From assembly GCA_039096225.1 (NCBI GenBank), contig JBBPEB010000015.1:1451501-1515500 (forward strand): DNA of 64,000 bases, in the 5' to 3' direction. A program made the position numbers and the translations under genes. Shown one piece after another: positions 50,474 to 60,256 of the stretch. This stretch comes from Blastocystis sp. Blastoise. Its lineage: Eukaryota; Sar; Bigyra; Opalinata; Blastocystidae. The notes beneath the pieces are model-generated. The model saw nothing but the letters and a program-made list of their open reading frames with translations, was not told the DNA's origin and searched no databases. How positions within the stretch are numbered: position 1 is the first letter of the stretch; each line of letters begins with the position of its first letter.

Positions 50474-50546
50474 GCCTCGATAGCTCAGTCGGGAGAGCGT
50501 ATGACTGAAGATCATAAGGTCCCTGGTTCGATCCCGGGTCAAGGCG
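50474..50546 (+). tRNA. tRNA-Phe (anticodon GAA)
   Basis: A 73-nt cloverleaf with no intron. The acceptor GCCTCGA pairs with TCAAGGC with one C-A mismatch. The D arm is TAGCTCAGTCGGGAGAGC. The anticodon stem TATGA/TCATA encloses loop CTGAAGA with anticodon GAA. The T arm CCTGG/CCGGG encloses TTCGATC. The internal A box (TAGCTCAGTCGG) and B box (GGTTCGATCC) for RNA polymerase III are both clear. CCA is not encoded, as in eukaryotes; a T-rich run (attttatttttg, 50550 on) follows as a terminator. It lies 32 nt before the ATG of the next gene. Confidence 0.96.
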
Positions 50547-50578
50547 TAATTTTATTTTTGTTTATTTTTTTAGATTCT

Positions 50579-52826
50579 ATGAAGCATAAGGATCATAATG
50601 GTGGTCCTTTGGAGTTCAAACTCTACACCAAAAATATTTTTCCTAAATGGGAAAAATATCTTTATAGATTTCAAATTTGGAAATCTCAGTTCAGAGATGA
50701 TGGTCTACAACAACTGTATCAAAAGTCGTTGTCAAACTATCATTCTTCTTCACTGAGAAAACTGAGTTTAAAGAGATCTACTCATGTATTCAGCTGGAAG
50801 TTTACTCAAAATAAAAAGTTTCAAATTTGCAGTCAAAATTCAAAAATAATCAGAAAAATGAAAAATTCAAATTTTTCATGTTCTTCTTCTACCCCTTTTT
50901 ATTTCTCTAATAGAGAAATTAAGAATTCCAAAGCTTCTAATAATGGAATCTACACGTCTTCCGCCATTGAATCTCAAGATCCAAACCACAAAAATTTTGC
51001 TCATTTACTTAATCGGCGAAGTGAAGTGGTTCGAAAATTGGCTTCTAAGGTTCCATCTACTACTGATAAGGGTCCTCATTGCAAAAAACCATGTTTCAGC
51101 TCAAAAGCTCAGAAACAAGAGAGAATGGTGAAATACATTATGAAAAAGGTCCTTTCCAAAAATATCAAAATTGGTATTCGTGATGGTTCTTCTTACTCTA
51201 CATCAAATAATGGTCTTCGTTTAGATTCTTCTATGGTTTCCAAAAACAGAGAGAATGGTGACTTTAAAGAAGTTTCAAAAAATGATGAAAATGGTGTGGA
51301 AAGCAAGATAAAGATGAATACGAATGGCTGTGATGATATTAATAATTCAATGGCTTTTAATGAGAGAAAAGAAGCCAAGAATGCTGATGAAAAATATATA
51401 TATATAGATGTTATTAATGAGAATACTAATATGAATAATAATATAATAGATATCAATAATGATGAAAATAATATAAATATTAATTATATAGATAATAATA
51501 ATGACGAAAATAATATAGTCCATAATTATGTAAAGAATAATAAGAATATAGATAATAAGAATATGGATAAGAATACTAATGAAATTGGTACTAATATGGA
51601 AGATAATGATAATAATTATATAGAAAGTGATGATTCTTCATATGTTCCAGATTCTGAAATGGATGATGTTGATAGTTATACCTCTTCTAGTTATTATACA
51701 TCAGATATGGATGAAAGTGAAGATATGAATGCATTCCAGAAAGATGAAATAGTGAAGATAGATGATATAAGTAATGAAAATAATAATATAAATAATCCTC
51801 TAAATATACTTATGAATGATCTTCTTAATGATGTTAATAAGTATATAGATAAAAATGAATATATAGATAAATATAAATATGAAAATAAAATATCAAATGA
51901 TATAGATAATAAAAATATGAATAATACTCCTATTACTCCTATTACTTCTAATAACACTATAACTCCTATAACTCCTATAACTCCTAATACTTCTATAACT
52001 CCTTCTATTCCTATAACTCCTTCTACTCCTTCTACTTCTATAACTCCTTCTACTACTATATCTCCTAATACTCCTATAATTCCTTCTACTCTTATAACTC
52101 TTATAACTCCTTCTACTGCTAATACTTCTATAACTCCTAATACTCCTATAAATGTTTCTACTCCTATAACTTCTTCTACCCCTATAACTTCTGGTACTTC
52201 AATAACTCCTATAACCCATATTACTTCTATAACTCCTATTACTCCTATAACTCCTCTTGATCCTATAACTCCTATAACTCCTTCTACTTCTATAACTCCT
52301 ATAAACCCAATAACTCCTATTACTCCTATAACTCCTATTACTCCTATAATTCCAATAACTACAATAACTCCTATAAATCCTATTACTCCTATAACTCCTA
52401 TAACTCCTTCTACTCCTATAACTCCTATTACTCCTATTACTCCTGTAACTACTATTAACCATTTATATATTAATTCTCATCTAAATGTTAATACTAATAA
52501 TAATAATAATAATAATAATACTATTAACAGAGATACTGACATAAATAGATTTAATAATATTAATAAATTGTCTAACAATAATAATAATAATAATAATAAT
52601 AATTCTTTAGATATTAATTCCTCAACTAATATAAATGAATCTACTAATATTAATAATAATATGATAATAGATTCTTCTTCTTCTGATAATAATAATAATA
52701 ATTCTACAGATATCGATATTAATAATACTAGTATATATGATAATGATATTGATTCTACTGATATTAATATTATAGATATTACAGAAGATGAAACTGATGC
52801 TATGAATACCTTTGATGATCATGAAG

Positions 52827-52903
<77 letters not shown>

Positions 52904-52969
52904 CATTACTATTATAAAGCAAATAGGCAAAAAAATTCCCATTGGTCAGTTTTTGGAAAATGCATTTGA
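50579..52969 (+). CDS. Low-complexity Asn/Thr-Pro-rich protein, 5' part, cut by a Helitron
   Basis: The open frame extends upstream into the tRNA gene; the first ATG past the tRNA is 50579 ([16 protein letters not shown]). About 250 N-terminal residues are basic and of mixed composition, followed by Asn/Asp/Ile-rich sequence and acidic Ser patches ([14 protein letters not shown]). From about 51940 to 52455 a 9-bp unit (act cct ata) encodes a TPI/TPS repeat array. Poly-Asn follows, last and longest at 52828-52902. At 52903 the sequence switches to a transposon, so the final residues [15 protein letters not shown]... are encoded by element DNA and end at its stop. The frame of the last AAT codon continues exactly in the AAT repeat beyond the two elements. 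I do not recognise the protein. Confidence 0.6.
51936..52455 (+). repeat. Minisatellite encoding Thr-Pro-Ile/Ser repeats
   Basis: Units of 9 bases (actcctata/actcctatt/acttctata) repeat about 55 times in frame within the low-complexity CDS. Confidence 0.9.
52828..52902 (+). repeat. (AAT)n tract encoding poly-Asn; target of the Helitron insertions
   Basis: Around 25 AAT triplets run directly up to the first element. The same repeat resumes at 56065-56067 (one unit) and 59029-59114. Confidence 0.95.
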
Positions 52970-53569
52970 TTGGCTAATGTATACTATAGTTTGTGGACAC
53001 AACTCCTCTAAACTTACGGGAAGTTAACTTTTGGGTGAAACACAGTTCAATAGGATATAACCTGTAGTTGTGCACCATATATTTGGTTAAGCGATATTAT
53101 TTATAATTAAAAAGTTATTAATAAAAAAACAGAAAACATGATTTTTGAGTCGTTTTTGATTGGCTCTTTGGGATGACCCCGATAAAAATTGTTGACCAGA
53201 CAATTGAAAAATAAACATGGGGTAAACTTGATTTTTTCTCAATCCCACAATATACGTTATCCGTGTTTATTCTTTATATTTATCTATTTTTTAATACTTT
53301 TTCATATTGAACACGTGAGGCCTTAACGGTCAAATTTAGATTGTCAATTTGACATCATATTCTGATTCAGGAGGTCAGAAAACCTAGGTGTACCAATTTT
53401 CAGCTCCTGAGAACGATTTTTGAGTGATCGATATTTTCTTCGATCTTCTTATAATCGACTAATATTACAGTATTGTAATTAATAGGTCCTCAAACCACTA
53501 TAGTCAAAGCAGAGTCTTAAAATAATGAGTTTAAAAGTGACAATTTTGAAAAATGTGAATTAAGTGGTC

Positions 53570-54830
53570 TTAGAGTGAGAGATTCAATATAATAACTTTT
53601 GTTTAGTATACTTTAGATATTACTCTATTCTATGTTAAAAGGAGAGTCAAAATTATGATGGTCAAAGTGTATGACCAAATGACAAAATGTGTCTTAAAAA
53701 GTAAAAGGGTGTCTATATGTGTTTCAAATGTTAAGTCAAGTCAATTCTATGAATAATAGCTTTAAATAAATAGTTTAAGGTTGTCAAATTTAAAAGAATG
53801 TGTAAAACATAGTCTTAAACTGTGAATAAAAAATTTAGAGATATTAATTAGTATACAGTTGTAGTAGCTCTACAACATATCAAAAGTATAAAGAAAATAA
53901 TTTTTAGAGAGTGGATGTGTGAAGGGTTGTGAGAGTTATTAAAAATTTATTTTTACGTCAGTTTGAGCAAAATCGTGAATTTCGTGCACTGTAGAAAAAT
54001 TGAGTCAAAAGGTCAACTCTAAGGGTCTTAAATTTAAAAAATGTAAAAATGAGTGACTTAGAGGACGAGATTCAATATTTGAGTGTTTAGTCATTAAACT
54101 AGAGTGTATGAGCTATATTATGTTAAAAGGAGGGACAAAAATATGTTGATCAAAGTGTATGACCAAATGGTAAAGTGTCTTTAAAAAGTCTAAAGTGATG
54201 ACTAATATGTTTATAGAGTCTTATAAAGTCTACTATGAAAATATTAGCTTTTAAAAATATGTTTAAGCCTTTCAATTAGTAAAAATATGTTCAAAGAGAC
54301 TCATAAAATGAGAGTTTTAAGAAACGAGATATTGTTCAGTATACACTAAGAGACACTCTACAACATATCAAAAATCTAGCAAAAACTATTTTTAGAGAGT
54401 GGATGTGTGAAGGGTTGTGAGAGTTATTGAAAAAATATTTTTACTTCAGTTTGTGTAAAATCGTGTTTTTGGAACACTGTAGAAAAATTAACTTCAGAAA
54501 TCAACTCTAAGGGTCTTAATTTTGAAAAATGTGAAAATGACTGACTTAGAGGACGAGATTCAAAATTCCCCCTCACTTTCATATAACTAGAGCACACACT
54601 CTATATTATGTCAAAAGAAGGGACGAAAATATTTTGGTCGAAGTAAATGAGCAAATGCAAAAGGTTTATAAAATGTCTTAAAGTGATGACCAATGTGTAG
54701 CTAACGTTATACTGAGTATAGTGTGTAAATATTAGCTTATAAAAATGATTTTAAGTGTGTAAACTTTTCATAATGTGTCAAGAAGGGTCTTTAAGAAAGA
54801 GATTCAAAACATTTGCTTTTATTTAATAAA
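53570..54830 (+). repeat. Diverged ~245-bp repeats in dimer (~489-bp) register inside Helitron copy 1
   Basis: The motif gagattcaa occurs near 53580, 54069, 54556 and 54794, with weaker forms near 53835 and 54325, giving ~245-bp spacing. Longer blocks recur at ~489 bp: agagagtggatgtgtgaagg near 53907 and 54396, aactctaagggtcttaa near 54018 and 54503, and ctacaacatatcaaaa near 53870 and 54359. The same array is present in copy 2, 3,165 bp further on. Confidence 0.8.
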
Positions 54831-55414
54831 TTGTATAATAAACTCTATACTATATCAAAAGACTGAAGGAAATTATTCTGATACAGTGGATCTTGAATGT
54901 GTAAAGTCTCTTTAAAAGTTACATTTTTGAGTTATTTATGATTAAAATCATTAGTTGAAATTAATATAAAAATATTAACTTTTTAAGTAATGTTTTAGTT
55001 GTCAAAGTGACAATGAATGTTGACTTTGTTATACTTAAAACTTCAAAATTCTTTTAAAAAGTATTGAAATGAGTTAAAATTATTATATTATGCTTATTTA
55101 AATGAATTTTATGACTTAAAAATACTCAAGAGTACTTCACATTGTGACTCATTTCTAAAGTTGTTGACTTTAAAAACTCAAAAAATGCTTAAGAAAGTTG
55201 TTTAATTATTAATAAATACAAAATATATTTTAAAAATAATAAATAATATGTATAGTGATTCAAAATAGTTTTTTAATTTTCTTTCAAGTATTGTTTTTAG
55301 TTTTTTTGATATCATTTAAAGAATTTATTTAATTCTTATATCAGGAATTGAACCTGATTACAATCAATAAATGATTGTAACTCTCCATATAGAGTATAAG
55401 AAGTGTTATTAAAG

Positions 55415-55934
55415 TAATATATAATATATAATATATAATATATAATATAAAATATAAAATATAAAATATATAATATATAATATATAATATATAATATATA
55501 ATATATAATATATAATATATAATATATAATATATAATATATAATATATAATATATAATATATAATATATAATATATAATATATAATATATAATATATAAT
55601 ATATAATATATAATATATAATATATAATATATAATATATAATATATAATATATAATATATAATATATAATATATAATATATAATATATAATATATAATAT
55701 ATAATATATAATATATAATATATAATATATAATATAATATATAATATATAATATATAATATATAATATATAATATATAATATATAATATATAATATATAA
55801 TATATAATATATAATATATAATATATAATATATAATATATAATATATAATATATAATATATAATATATAATATATAATATATAATATATAATATATAATA
55901 TATAATATATAATATATAATATATAATATATAAT
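55415..55934 (+). repeat. (TAATATA)n 7-bp microsatellite in Helitron copy 1
   Basis: About 520 bp of a 7-bp unit with a few aaatata variants. The Tyr/Ile-only open frame across it (minus strand) is an artefact of a 7-bp unit with no stop in the register read. The equivalent array in copy 2 is about 200 bp shorter. Confidence 0.95.
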
Positions 55935-56017
55935 AGATAATAAATACTAATATATAATAGATAATATATAATAATGAAAAAAAGAAAATAAAAGCCAAAC
56001 TGTTATTATTTTATGCA

Positions 56018-56054
56018 GCCGCGGTCCGGTGCCGTTAGGCCCCGGACCTGCGGC
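56018..56054 (+). other. 3'-terminal hairpin of Helitron copy 1
   Basis: GCCGC-GGTCCGG pairs with CCGGACC-T-GCGGC around a 12-nt loop (12 bp of stem with one bulged T). Ten bases later the element ends at CTAG. It is the strongest GC-rich island in the window apart from its twin. Confidence 0.9.
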
Positions 56055-58579
56055 GTGACCCTAGTAATCATTACTATTATAAAGCAAATAGGCAAAAAAA
56101 TTCCCATTGGTCAGTTTTTGGAAAATGCATTTGATTGGCTAATGTATACTATAGTTTGTGGACACAACTCCTCTAAACTTACGGGGAGTTAATGTTTGGT
56201 TGAAACACAGTTCAATAGGATATAACCTGTAGTTTTGCACCGTATATTTGGTTAAGCGATATTATTAATAATTAAAAAGTTATTAATAAAAGAACAGAAA
56301 ACATGATTTTTGAGTCGTTTTTGATTGGCTCTTTGGGATGACCCCGATAAAAATTGTTGACCAGACAATTGAAAAATAAACATGGGGTAAACTTGATTTT
56401 TTCTCAATCCCACAATATACGTTATCCGTGTTTATTCTTTATATTTATCTATTTTTTAATACTTTTTCATATTGAACACGTGAGGCCTTAACGGTCAAAT
56501 TTAGATTGTCAATTTGACATCATATTCTGATTCAGGAGGTCAGAAAACCTAGGTGTACCAATTTTCAGCTCCTGAGAACGATTTTTGAGTGATCGATATT
56601 TTCTTCGATCTTCTTATAATCGACTAATATTACAGTATTGTAATTAATAGGTCCTCAAACCACTATAGTCAAAGCAGAGTCTTAAAATAATGAGTTTAAA
56701 AGTGACAATTTTGAAAAATGTGAATTAAGTGGTCTTAGAGTGAGAGATTCAATATAATAACTTTTGTTTAGTATACTTTAGATATTACTCTATTCTATGT
56801 TAAAAGGAGAGTCAAAATTATGATGGTCAAAGTGTATGACCAAATGACAAAATGTGTCTTAAAAAGTAAAAGGGTGTCTATATGTGTTTCAAATGTTAAG
56901 TCAAGTCAATTCTATGAATAATAGCTTTAAATAAATAGTTTAAGGTTGTCAAATTTAAAAGAATGTGTAAAACATAGTCTTAAACTGTGAATAAAAAATT
57001 TAGAGATATTAATTAGTGTACAGTTGTAGTAGCTCTACAACATATCAAAAGTATAAAGAAAATAATTTTTAGAGAGTGGATGTGTGAAGGGTTGTGAGAG
57101 TTATTAAAAATTTATTTTTACGTCAGTTTGAGCAAAATCGTGAATTTCGTGCACTGTAGAAAAATTGAGTCAAAAGGTCAACTCTAAGGGTCTTAAATTT
57201 AAAAAATGTAAAAATGAGTGACTTAGAGGACGAGATTCAATATTTGAGTGTTTAGTCATTAAACTAGAGTGTATGAGCTATATTATGTTAAAAGGAGGGA
57301 CAAAAATATGTTGATCAAAGTGTATGACCAAATGGTAAAGTGTCTTTAAAAAGTCTAAAGTGATGACTAATATGTTTATAGAGTCTTATAAAGTCTACTA
57401 TGAAAATATTAGCTTTTAAAAATATGTTTAAGCCTTTCAATTAGTAAAAATATGTTCAAAGAGACTCATAAAATGAGAGTTTTAAGAAACGAGATATTGT
57501 TCAGTATACACTAAGAGACACTCTACAACATATCAAAAATCTAGCAAAAACTATTTTTAGAGAGTGGATGTGTGAAGGGTTGTGAGAGTTATTGAAAAAA
57601 TATTTTTACTTCAGTTTGTGTAAAATCGTGTTTTTGGAACACTGTAGAAAAATTAACTTCAGAAATCAACTCTAAGGGTCTTAATTTTGAAAAATGTGAA
57701 AATGACTGACTTAGAGGACGAGATTCAAAATTCCCCCTCACTTTCATATAACTAGAGCACACACTCTATATTATGTCAAAAGAAGGGACGAAAATATTTT
57801 GGTCGAAGTAAATGAGCAAATGCAAAAGGTTTATAAAATGTCTTAAAGTGATGACCAATGTGTAGCTAACGTTATACTGAGTATAGTGTGTAAATATTAG
57901 CTTATAAAAATGATTTTAAGTGTGTAAACTTTTCATAATGTGTCAAGAAGGGTCTTTAAGAAAGAGATTCAAAACATTTGCTTTTATTTAATAAATTGTA
58001 TAATAAACTCTATACTATATCAAAAGACTGAAGGAAATTATTCTGATACAGTGGATCTTGAATGTGTAAAGTCTCTTTAAAAGTTACATTTTTGAGTTAT
58101 TTATGATTAAAATCATTAGTTGAAATTAATATAAAAATATTAACTTTTTAAGTAATGTTTTAGTTGTCAAAGTGACAATGAATGTTGACTTTGTTATACT
58201 TAAAACTTCAAAATTCTTTTAAAAAGTATTGAAATGAGTTAAAATTATTATATTATGCTTATTTAAATGAATTTTATGACTTAAAAATACTCAAGAGTAC
58301 TTCACATTGTGACTCATTTCTAAAGTTGTTGACTTTAAAAACTCAAAAAATGCTTAAGAAAGTTGTTTAATTATTAATAAATACAAAATATATTTTAAAA
58401 ATAATAAATAATATGTATAGTGATTCAAAATAGTTTTTTAATTTTCTTTCAAGTATTGTTTTTAGTTTTTTTGATATCATTTAAAGAATTTATTTAATTC
58501 TTATATCAGGAATTGAACCTGATTACAATCAATAAATGATTGTAACTCTCCATATAGAGTATAAGAAGTGTTATTAAAG

Positions 58580-58898
58580 TAATATATAATATATAATATA
58601 TAATATATAATATAAAATATAAAATATATAATATATAATATATAATATATAATATATAATATATAATATATAATATATAATATATAATATATAATATATA
58701 ATATATAATATATAATATATAATATATAATATATAATATATAATATATAATATATAATATATAATATATAATATATAATATATAATATATAATATATAAT
58801 ATATAATATATAATATATAATATATAATATATAATATATAATATATAATATATAATATATAATATATAATATATAATATATAATATATAATATATAAT
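58580..58898 (+). repeat. (TAATATA)n 7-bp microsatellite in Helitron copy 2
   Basis: Same array as in copy 1 but about 320 bp long. Flanking variants (aaatata near the left end, tagataataaatac at the right) are shared. Confidence 0.95.
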
Positions 58899-58981
58899 AG
58901 ATAATAAATACTAATATATAATAGATAATATATAATAATGAAAAAAAGAAAATAAAAGCCAAACTGTTATTATTTTATGCA

Positions 58982-59018
58982 GCCGCGGTCCGGTGCCGTT
59001 AGGCCCCGGACCTGCGGC
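58982..59018 (+). other. 3'-terminal hairpin of Helitron copy 2
   Basis: Identical in sequence to the hairpin of copy 1, again ten bases before the CTAG end. Confidence 0.9.
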
Positions 59019-59027
59019 GTGACCCTA

Positions 59028-59028
<1 letters not shown>

Positions 59029-59112
<84 letters not shown>

Positions 59113-60256
59113 TAGAAGAAATAGATCTGATTCAATTTCTTCTTCTTCATCTTCATCTTCATCTTCCTCTTCCTCTTCCTCTTCCTCTTCTTCTTCATCT
59201 GGAATGGATATAGAAGAATCAAATATTAATAATAATAATAATGATATTGATATAGATAATATGCCTTCTATTATTCCTTCTATTATCAGAAATTTAAATA
59301 GAAATACAAATTCTATTCAACAAATTAATAATAATAATAATACTTCTCCTCCAAATAATAATCAAACTATAAATCAATCAATTCCTAATAATAATATTAA
59401 TAATACTATAAATGATATTGATTTAGATTTATCTCTTAATAATCATATAAATAATCCTATTATTCCTAATTATCTTCATATTCCTATTCAAGATAGAATA
59501 TATCCTTATAATTTAGATAATCTTGATTTACCTACTGGAATAATAGAAAACAATATGATGAATACATTATTTAATTCTAATAGAAGAGTATTAACATTAG
59601 ATTCTTCTATTTATTCTATAAATTCTATTCCTAATAATATTCCTAATTTTCCTACAGAATGTAATTGGATATTTCCTTGTAAACCAGATTTCTTTATTGG
59701 TTATAATGAAATACGAAATCATGAGAAAGGAAAAGTATGGAAATATTTAAATGAAATACGTGAATGTTTTAATCATATAATATTAATGTTATCATGGAAT
59801 AGATCTATTAATCATTCTAATTTAACAAGATTAGATGCATTCACTTTATTCTTTCCTAATATAGAAAAGAATGCTATAGATTCATTATTACGTAAGATAA
59901 GGAGTAATTATAGACAAATAAATAGAGATACTAATATTCCTACTTTAGGTAATAGAAATAATAATCGTATTCCAAATAATCAAAGATTAAGAAATAATCA
60001 AATACAAAATGGTTATATTAATATTAATAATAACAAGCGTTTCACGACTGGCTACGCCAGCCTACGCTTGAGTTTTGATAGTTGTCATCTCTTAATTGTT
60101 ATATTTTATGTTGTTTTTTTTTTTAAATATTATGTTTATTTTTATGTTTTTGTTATTCATTTCTATTTTTTTATTTTTAGGATGAAGACTATTTCATATT
60201 TTATAAATTATTATTTCAATTGTTTTAGTTGTTATCTTCTATTGTTTAGTTATTAG
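59029..60256 (+). pseudogene. 3' part of the Helitron-split Asn-rich gene
   Basis: The AAT repeat resumes after the second element and stays in frame with the 5' part. It leads to a Ser run (about 59139-59196), then MDIEESNIN and Asn-rich sequence. From 59660 there is a compact block that looks folded: NWIFPCKPDFFIGYNEIRNH, KVWKYLNEIRECFNHIILML, then NLTRLDAFTLFFPNIEKNA and IDSLLRKIRSNYRQI. I do not recognise the domain. Plausible coding sequence stops near 60033, where another AAT-rich run meets a hairpin; the remaining open frame (Phe/Tyr/Val-rich) to 60256 is probably foreign or non-coding. With the elements in place, translation from the original start would end at 52969, so this part is likely not expressed unless the element is spliced or an internal start is used. 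Confidence 0.6.
60034..60070 (-). other. Hairpin resembling a second rolling-circle element end
   Basis: CAAGCGT (60034-60040) pairs with ACGCTTG (60064-60070), and CTGGC pairs with GCCAG inside (48-52 with 56-60). It is GC-rich in an AT background and abuts another AAT-type tract. Read on the minus strand, it could be the 3' end of an element extending rightwards. Confidence 0.5.

Follow-up and report, generated by a model that had tools for sequence, protein, structure and literature searches.

A tandem pair of near-identical Helitrons in an AAT tract of Blastocystis and how it may have arisen

Introduction

How do two near-identical transposable elements come to lie three bases apart in a single microsatellite? 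The question is raised by a 64,000-nt stretch of the genome of Blastocystis sp. Blastoise (C4:1451501-1515500 of a 33.3 Mb, 34-contig assembly), called the window throughout. An initial annotation of this stretch described two Helitrons on the same strand within one AAT tract and read them as two insertions at neighbouring sites or as a re-insertion beside an existing copy. We compared the pair with its host gene, with other family copies in the genome and with a duplicate of the whole locus.

Results

The pair interrupts a copy of a multicopy gene

The two near-identical same-strand copies, with TAA between them in one AAT tract, lie to the base where the initial annotation placed them, and the presence of the pair in the assembly is confirmed. 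Positions count from the first letter of the window:

50501-52902, + strand: 5' part of an Asn/Thr-rich host ORF that has about 8 near-identical copies, broken by the array (ORF and copy comparison)
52828-52902, + strand: left target tract, (AAT)n, 25 units (sequence and paralogue comparison)
52903-56064, + strand: predicted non-autonomous Helitron copy 1 (w1), TC...CTAG, 3162 nt
53569-54675, + strand: three diverged internal repeats at 488-nt spacing in w1, also present in w2 (families D4 and D6, 61-73% alike)
55420-55935, + strand: AATATAT microsatellite of w1, limits approximate
56018-56054, + strand: 3' hairpin of w1, stopping 10 nt short of the element end (folding)
56065-56067, + strand: TAA spacer, one unit of the AAT tract
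56068-59028, + strand: predicted non-autonomous Helitron copy 2 (w2), TC...CTAG, 2961 nt
about 58580-58900: AATATAT microsatellite of w2, shorter than that of w1
58982-59018, + strand: 3' hairpin of w2 (folding)
59029-59114, + strand: right (AAT)n tract of 18 perfect units, one AGT and further units, end approximate
59204-60033, + strand: 3' part of the host ORF, in phase with 50501-52902

Both elements begin with TCATTACTATT and finish with an identical hairpin followed by GTGACCCTAG. Apart from the AATATAT microsatellite, which differs in length, they are separated by 9 substitutions: 8 are clustered at nt 119-225 and one is at nt 951. No ATG-started ORF of at least 150 aa was found inside either of them. 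The array of w1, TAA and w2 measures 6126 nt, which equals 3 x 2042.

Seven other copies of the 5' part of the host ORF are present in the genome at 95-99% identity. The 3' part has seven others at 98-99% over 823-827 nt, as well as two partial ones and the sister locus described below. Three paralogues were fetched as empty sites, and in each of them the (AAT)n tract runs on unbroken at the corresponding position, so the array interrupts the Asn-coding tract of a multicopy gene. In all three the empty site is a plain A|T with no visible target-site duplication, although within a repeat tract a one-unit duplication looks the same as a change in repeat number. A Pfam search with the host ORF returned no match. 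A tRNA gene at 50474-50546 covers roughly the initial 15 codons of the ORF, and the true start is therefore probably further downstream.

The host ORF is homologous to its paralogues as far as about 60033, where a further repeat sets in, and this copy of the gene may be altered at its 3' end. The repeat (60034-60250 in the window), whose start at about 60034 adjoins an AAT-like stretch, recurs at 16 further places with 93-99% identity and at 13 with 82-87%, among 40 scored of 205 candidates. On the - strand it has a hairpin-like GGCTGGC...GCCAG end followed by CGCTTG and host TTATT, and it is possibly a further rolling-circle-like family.

Both elements belong to a Helitron family with an A|T target

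Judged by their sequence, w1 and w2 fit canonical non-autonomous Helitrons, with a TC start, a hairpin, a CTAG end and an A|T target. The last 53 nt of the elements fold at -19 kcal/mol (z = -5.7; 0/200 shuffles as good), and the hairpin itself, 37 nt long, finishes 10 nt before the element end, a canonical Helitron feature. The 18-nt 3' end has 137 matches in the genome at up to 2 mismatches (83 forward, 54 reverse), and its reversed control has 0 in the 33.3 Mb, which excludes chance. For the 17-nt 5' end, which represents one 5' subtype, 40 exact matches and 8 more at one mismatch were found; matches at two mismatches are background, the whole counts being 124 + 118 against 159 + 152 for the reversed control.

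Flanking bases were tabulated for 30 5'-end loci and 30 3'-end loci picked by exact end motifs, of which C4 array units make up 5 and 6, respectively. TC and CTAG are built into these motifs, and the flanking bases are the actual test: a host A precedes the 5' TC end in 30/30 sampled loci and a host T follows the 3' CTAG end in 30/30, in agreement with the earlier description of TC...CTAG Helitrons that obey the A|T rule. The genome-wide end search and flank table that had been proposed with that description were carried out in part, and yielded these A|T flanks as well as the over-use of AAT at 3' ends reported below. We also considered the TAA as a part of the element and rejected it: 3' flanks start with TAA in 12/30 loci, with TAT in 9/30 and with other bases in 9/30, and 8 of the 12 that start with TAA are at the C4 array or at two loci named i1516 and i1549.

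The RepHel domain (PF14214) has 51 matches in this genome and 0 in 14 control genomes. An open frame of at least 1000 aa accompanies 48 of the 51, and four have one TGA inside the match. Many share identical scores, which suggests several young autonomous Helitron groups in this Blastocystis. Comparison of the 51 matches with 100 of the 137 family 3' ends gave no clear case of a RepHel element that carries the end of the w1/w2 family. Among those 100 there are four pairings with a family 3' end at most 9 kb downstream of a RepHel match on the same strand: two lie in the sister array with its nested RepHel element, one is a separate copy on C14 and one is 7.3 kb off. The one RepHel element that was read encodes Helitron_like_N and a PIF1 helicase and has another 3' end, GCATCGGCGAAGCCGATGC-CACCCGCTAG.

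AAT tracts are over-used at 3' ends

Family 3' ends run into TAATAATAATAA in 11 of 137 cases; with duplicated loci counted once the number is 9, because two stem from segmental duplication. A|T sites that precede such an AAT tract number 159,673 on both strands of the genome, and within the window they are 168 of 19,982 oriented A|T sites. If the AT-dinucleotide density of the window is assumed genome-wide, about 1.9 of 137 ends are expected in this position, against 9 independent ones observed (P about 1e-4). On the 5' side, AATAATAATAA precedes 1 of 25 sampled non-array 5' ends (L023). The family has a modest preference for AAT tracts. The proposal that an AAT microsatellite may serve as a landing pad is supported on the 3' side; the 5' sample is thin. 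In the passages of PMC4778049 that deal with flanks, Helraiser favours AT-rich ones, most strongly on the 3' side.

One AAT tract on C24 holds a 2682-nt copy, (TAA)8 and then a 6504-nt stretch with a family-like start and end in the same orientation, its 3' end being taken as the next CTAG end on the same strand. Over the first 1.4 kb the two are 90.7% alike, and beyond that they are about 72% alike or unalignable; from this divergence they most likely arrived separately, as a double insertion in one tract. The second stretch (L090, C24:255343-261846, 6.5 kb) has a long non-family middle without a 250-codon stop-free run.

A duplicated locus carries four units with the same joint

Joints between family members were sought with two exact searches: CTAG-N(0-30)-TCATTACTATTATAA, which represents one 5' subtype, and TCATTACTAT, with a spacer of up to 61 nt. 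The first returned four joints genome-wide, one in the window and three at C4:1533817-1540190; all have TAA as the spacer and all belong to a pair of sister loci on C4. One further joint, that on C24 with (TAA)8, came from the wider search. None of the four exact joints with a spacer of 0-30 is a precise CTAG-TC joint.

The sister locus, 33 kb off, is a tandem duplicate with 99.0% identity across 16,886 nt; its right end includes 5277 nt with 0 mismatches. The right limit of the segmental duplication is at about C4:1524949. A minisatellite of TATATATAGATTCAGGATCAAAGC-like units (C4:1523854-1525900) is located at this right break and may have mediated the duplication. The sister array has four units: a remnant, of which only the final 226 nt are left, and the full units a2, a3 and a4. 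Where the front of the remnant is missing, a RepHel Helitron that has an end of its own takes its place. This element (C4:1528549-1533602; L073, L054) contains an open frame of 1590 aa, differs from the family in its 3' end and is nested at an A|T in the AATATAT microsatellite of the sister unit. The sequence upstream of a2, "a1", was examined as an autonomous partner with a common end and rejected, as it is a different Helitron inserted at an A|T in the microsatellite of the remnant unit.

Tandem units that are nearly identical and contain long microsatellites pose difficulties for assembly, and the pair could in principle be an assembly duplication of a single copy. We regard this as very improbable: w1 and w2 can be told apart by substitutions and by the length of their microsatellites, and the same arrangement is found again at the sister locus, with variants of its own.

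At nt 951 and in the microsatellite, w1 and a2 have A and the long form, w2 and a4 have G and the short form, and a3 has G and the long form. The variants shared by w1 with a2 and by w2 with a4 indicate that the dimer arose before the segmental duplication; a3 is the mosaic expected from crossing-over between a unit of one type (Y) and a unit of the other (X). The number of units may have changed either from 2 to 4 or from 4 to 2.

The recurrence of one and the same TAA in all four joints is also what a rolling-circle product with late termination would leave. The cut would fall at the next A|T, which in an AAT tract is exactly three bases past CTAG, and a circle or concatemer would then carry TAA in each joint; the bat element is reported in PMC4778049 to be read through at its 3' end. 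Circles of that element, however, are described there as joined precisely, CTAG to TC, as are the Myotis head-to-tail pairs cited in PMC2267711, and all TAA joints here may be recombination copies of one joint. We consider late termination very unlikely. A broader form, in which AAT tracts are registers for rolling-circle transposition and circles with an extra TAA recombine with or land beside a resident copy to build arrays with TAA joints, strikes us as an equally long shot. The initial annotation had argued that host bases between the copies speak against a rolling-circle product. It was right that the joint is not a perfect CTAG-TC, but its reasoning is weakened by a maize pair with precisely such a CTAG-TC joint which the relevant part of PMC2267711 judges to be two consecutive insertions, since its members differ.

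In another account, a new copy of the resident element would have landed one AAT unit from its parent, at the next A|T site. Such self re-insertion accounts for the near identity and for the in-rule A|T site of each unit. Family 3' ends over-use AAT tracts, and closely spaced Helitrons are on record elsewhere: a Fusarium FoHeli4 is 2 bp from another FoHeli4 (PMC5148889) and two maize Helitrons directly adjoin (PMC2267711), to take what the portions of these reports concerned with such pairs describe. It requires, though, a landing at the very next site, and the portion of PMC4778049 that treats insertion sites gives no local hopping for the reconstructed bat Helitron. Self re-insertion alone also leaves the four-unit array and the mosaic unit unexplained, and we hold it to be unlikely, if quite conceivable.

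The units are far closer to each other than to other sampled copies

Pairwise comparison of the array units w1, w2, a2, a3 and a4 gave 0-9 substitutions in their first 1.4 kb. They were compared with 25 of the 35 non-array copies that have exactly the same 5' end, and with i1516 (C4:1516727-1519672), a copy about 6 kb downstream that has an AAT tract on its right. The closest sampled non-array copy to w2 over the first 1.4 kb is L021, with 78 differences; i1516 has 80. Beyond nt 500, the smallest divergence among the sampled copies is 57/900 (6.3%), between w2 and L021. For the first 201 nt, no non-array copy exceeded 96% identity among 40 scored of 141 candidates.

The relationship to i1516 is uneven. 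It is identical to w2 over nt 20-549, has seven differences at nt 11-19 and shows about 9% divergence in nt 550-1400. In a comparison with w1 as far as nt 520, its differences are confined to those seven positions (nt 11-19) and the eight sites of the w1 patch. From this pattern, the stretch common to i1516 and w2 is read as a gene conversion tract, and the 8-SNP patch of w1 (nt 119-225) falls inside it. The patch is best read as a short later conversion. It could instead be a relic of an originally different element, a reading that keeps alive the model of independent insertions. No donor identical to the patch was found among 25 other sampled 5' ends and i1516.

According to that model, different family members would have inserted at neighbouring A|T sites and been homogenised later by gene conversion. 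C24 holds just such a pair in the same orientation (90.7% alike over 1.4 kb, separated by (TAA)8), w1 differs from w2 at 8/107 positions in nt 119-225, as between unrelated copies, and gene conversion is active in the w1/w2 locus. The homogenisation would, however, need to extend over nt 1-118 and everything from nt 226 on while sparing a 107-nt island, nt 951 and the microsatellite. With 137 copies, chance should produce about 0.03 pairs arranged head-to-tail within 61 nt, and yet the C24 pair exists. On balance we find independent insertions followed by homogenisation improbable. Two independent landings, one of the readings first put forward for this locus, are not supported for this pair: w1 and w2 differ by 9 substitutions outside the microsatellite, compared with at least 78 in 1.4 kb for the other sampled copies, the TAA joint recurs in the sister array and unit mosaics point to unequal recombination.

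Discussion

The account that we place first, and to which we give about an even chance, is one insertion, duplicated in place by misaligned exchange or template switch across TAA repeats and then subject to recombinational turnover. A single non-autonomous Helitron would first have entered the (AAT)n tract of an Asn-rich gene copy at an A|T site. The TAA repeats on its two flanks would then, most likely, have allowed a misaligned exchange or a template switch that duplicated the element in place and left one TAA between the units. The dimer would then have been copied within the tandem segmental duplication of the locus, homologous recombination between units would have shifted the copy number (2 in the window; in the sister locus 4, counting the remnant) and gene conversion would have patched the array units.

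We favour local duplication because of the near identity of the units, compared with at least 6% divergence from the sampled others (beyond nt 500), the recurrent TAA joint and the unit mosaics. The comparison covers the sampled copies, a minority of the family, in one assembly. We infer from this evidence that the first dimer was made by recombination and not by re-transposition. Several points count against the model: if the register were random over 25 left and 18 right units, a single-TAA spacer would result from about 0.4% of events, the w1 patch could be a relic of a different element, and on C24 two different copies did insert in one tract.

Canonical Helitrons (Helitron1 type, RepHel) have the same TC 5' end, hairpin with CTAG, A|T insertion and lack of a visible target-site duplication, but w1 and w2 are without RepHel. 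Among non-autonomous families, the Mothra Helitrons of rice (1.3-2.7 kb) are also AT-rich with internal repeat blocks and a TC...CTAG structure with a hairpin. For variation in their repeat number the authors invoke unequal crossing-over or slippage; the variation reported in the sections of that paper used here is inside the elements (PMC4683698), whereas in the Blastocystis array whole elements are the unit.

Tandem Helitrons as such are already known. They are cited for Myotis, Drosophila, rice and maize in PMC5148889, and Myotis tandems with perfect joints are cited in PMC2267711. As presented in the parts of these two papers that concern them, the tandem or adjacent Helitrons of Myotis, maize, rice, Drosophila and Fusarium are likewise head-to-tail and zero to few bases apart. 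Relative to these descriptions, the Blastocystis locus differs in having a host-type TAA in every joint, near-identical units and a sister array with a recombinational change in copy number, and it is notable mainly for its host and for the clear trace of recombination.

For the host, a gut stramenopile, the results suggest that its Helitrons are a young set, with recent activity suggested by the 51 RepHel matches, many of them identically scored. The non-autonomous family over-uses AAT tracts; AAT encodes poly-asparagine in the ORF studied here, and insertions can therefore break genes at such places. A tandem Helitron array that appears traceable to local duplication and recombination, and not to a rolling-circle concatemer, is a warning against reading every tandem as a product of transposition. 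On C24, by contrast, one tract appears to have received two genuine insertions.
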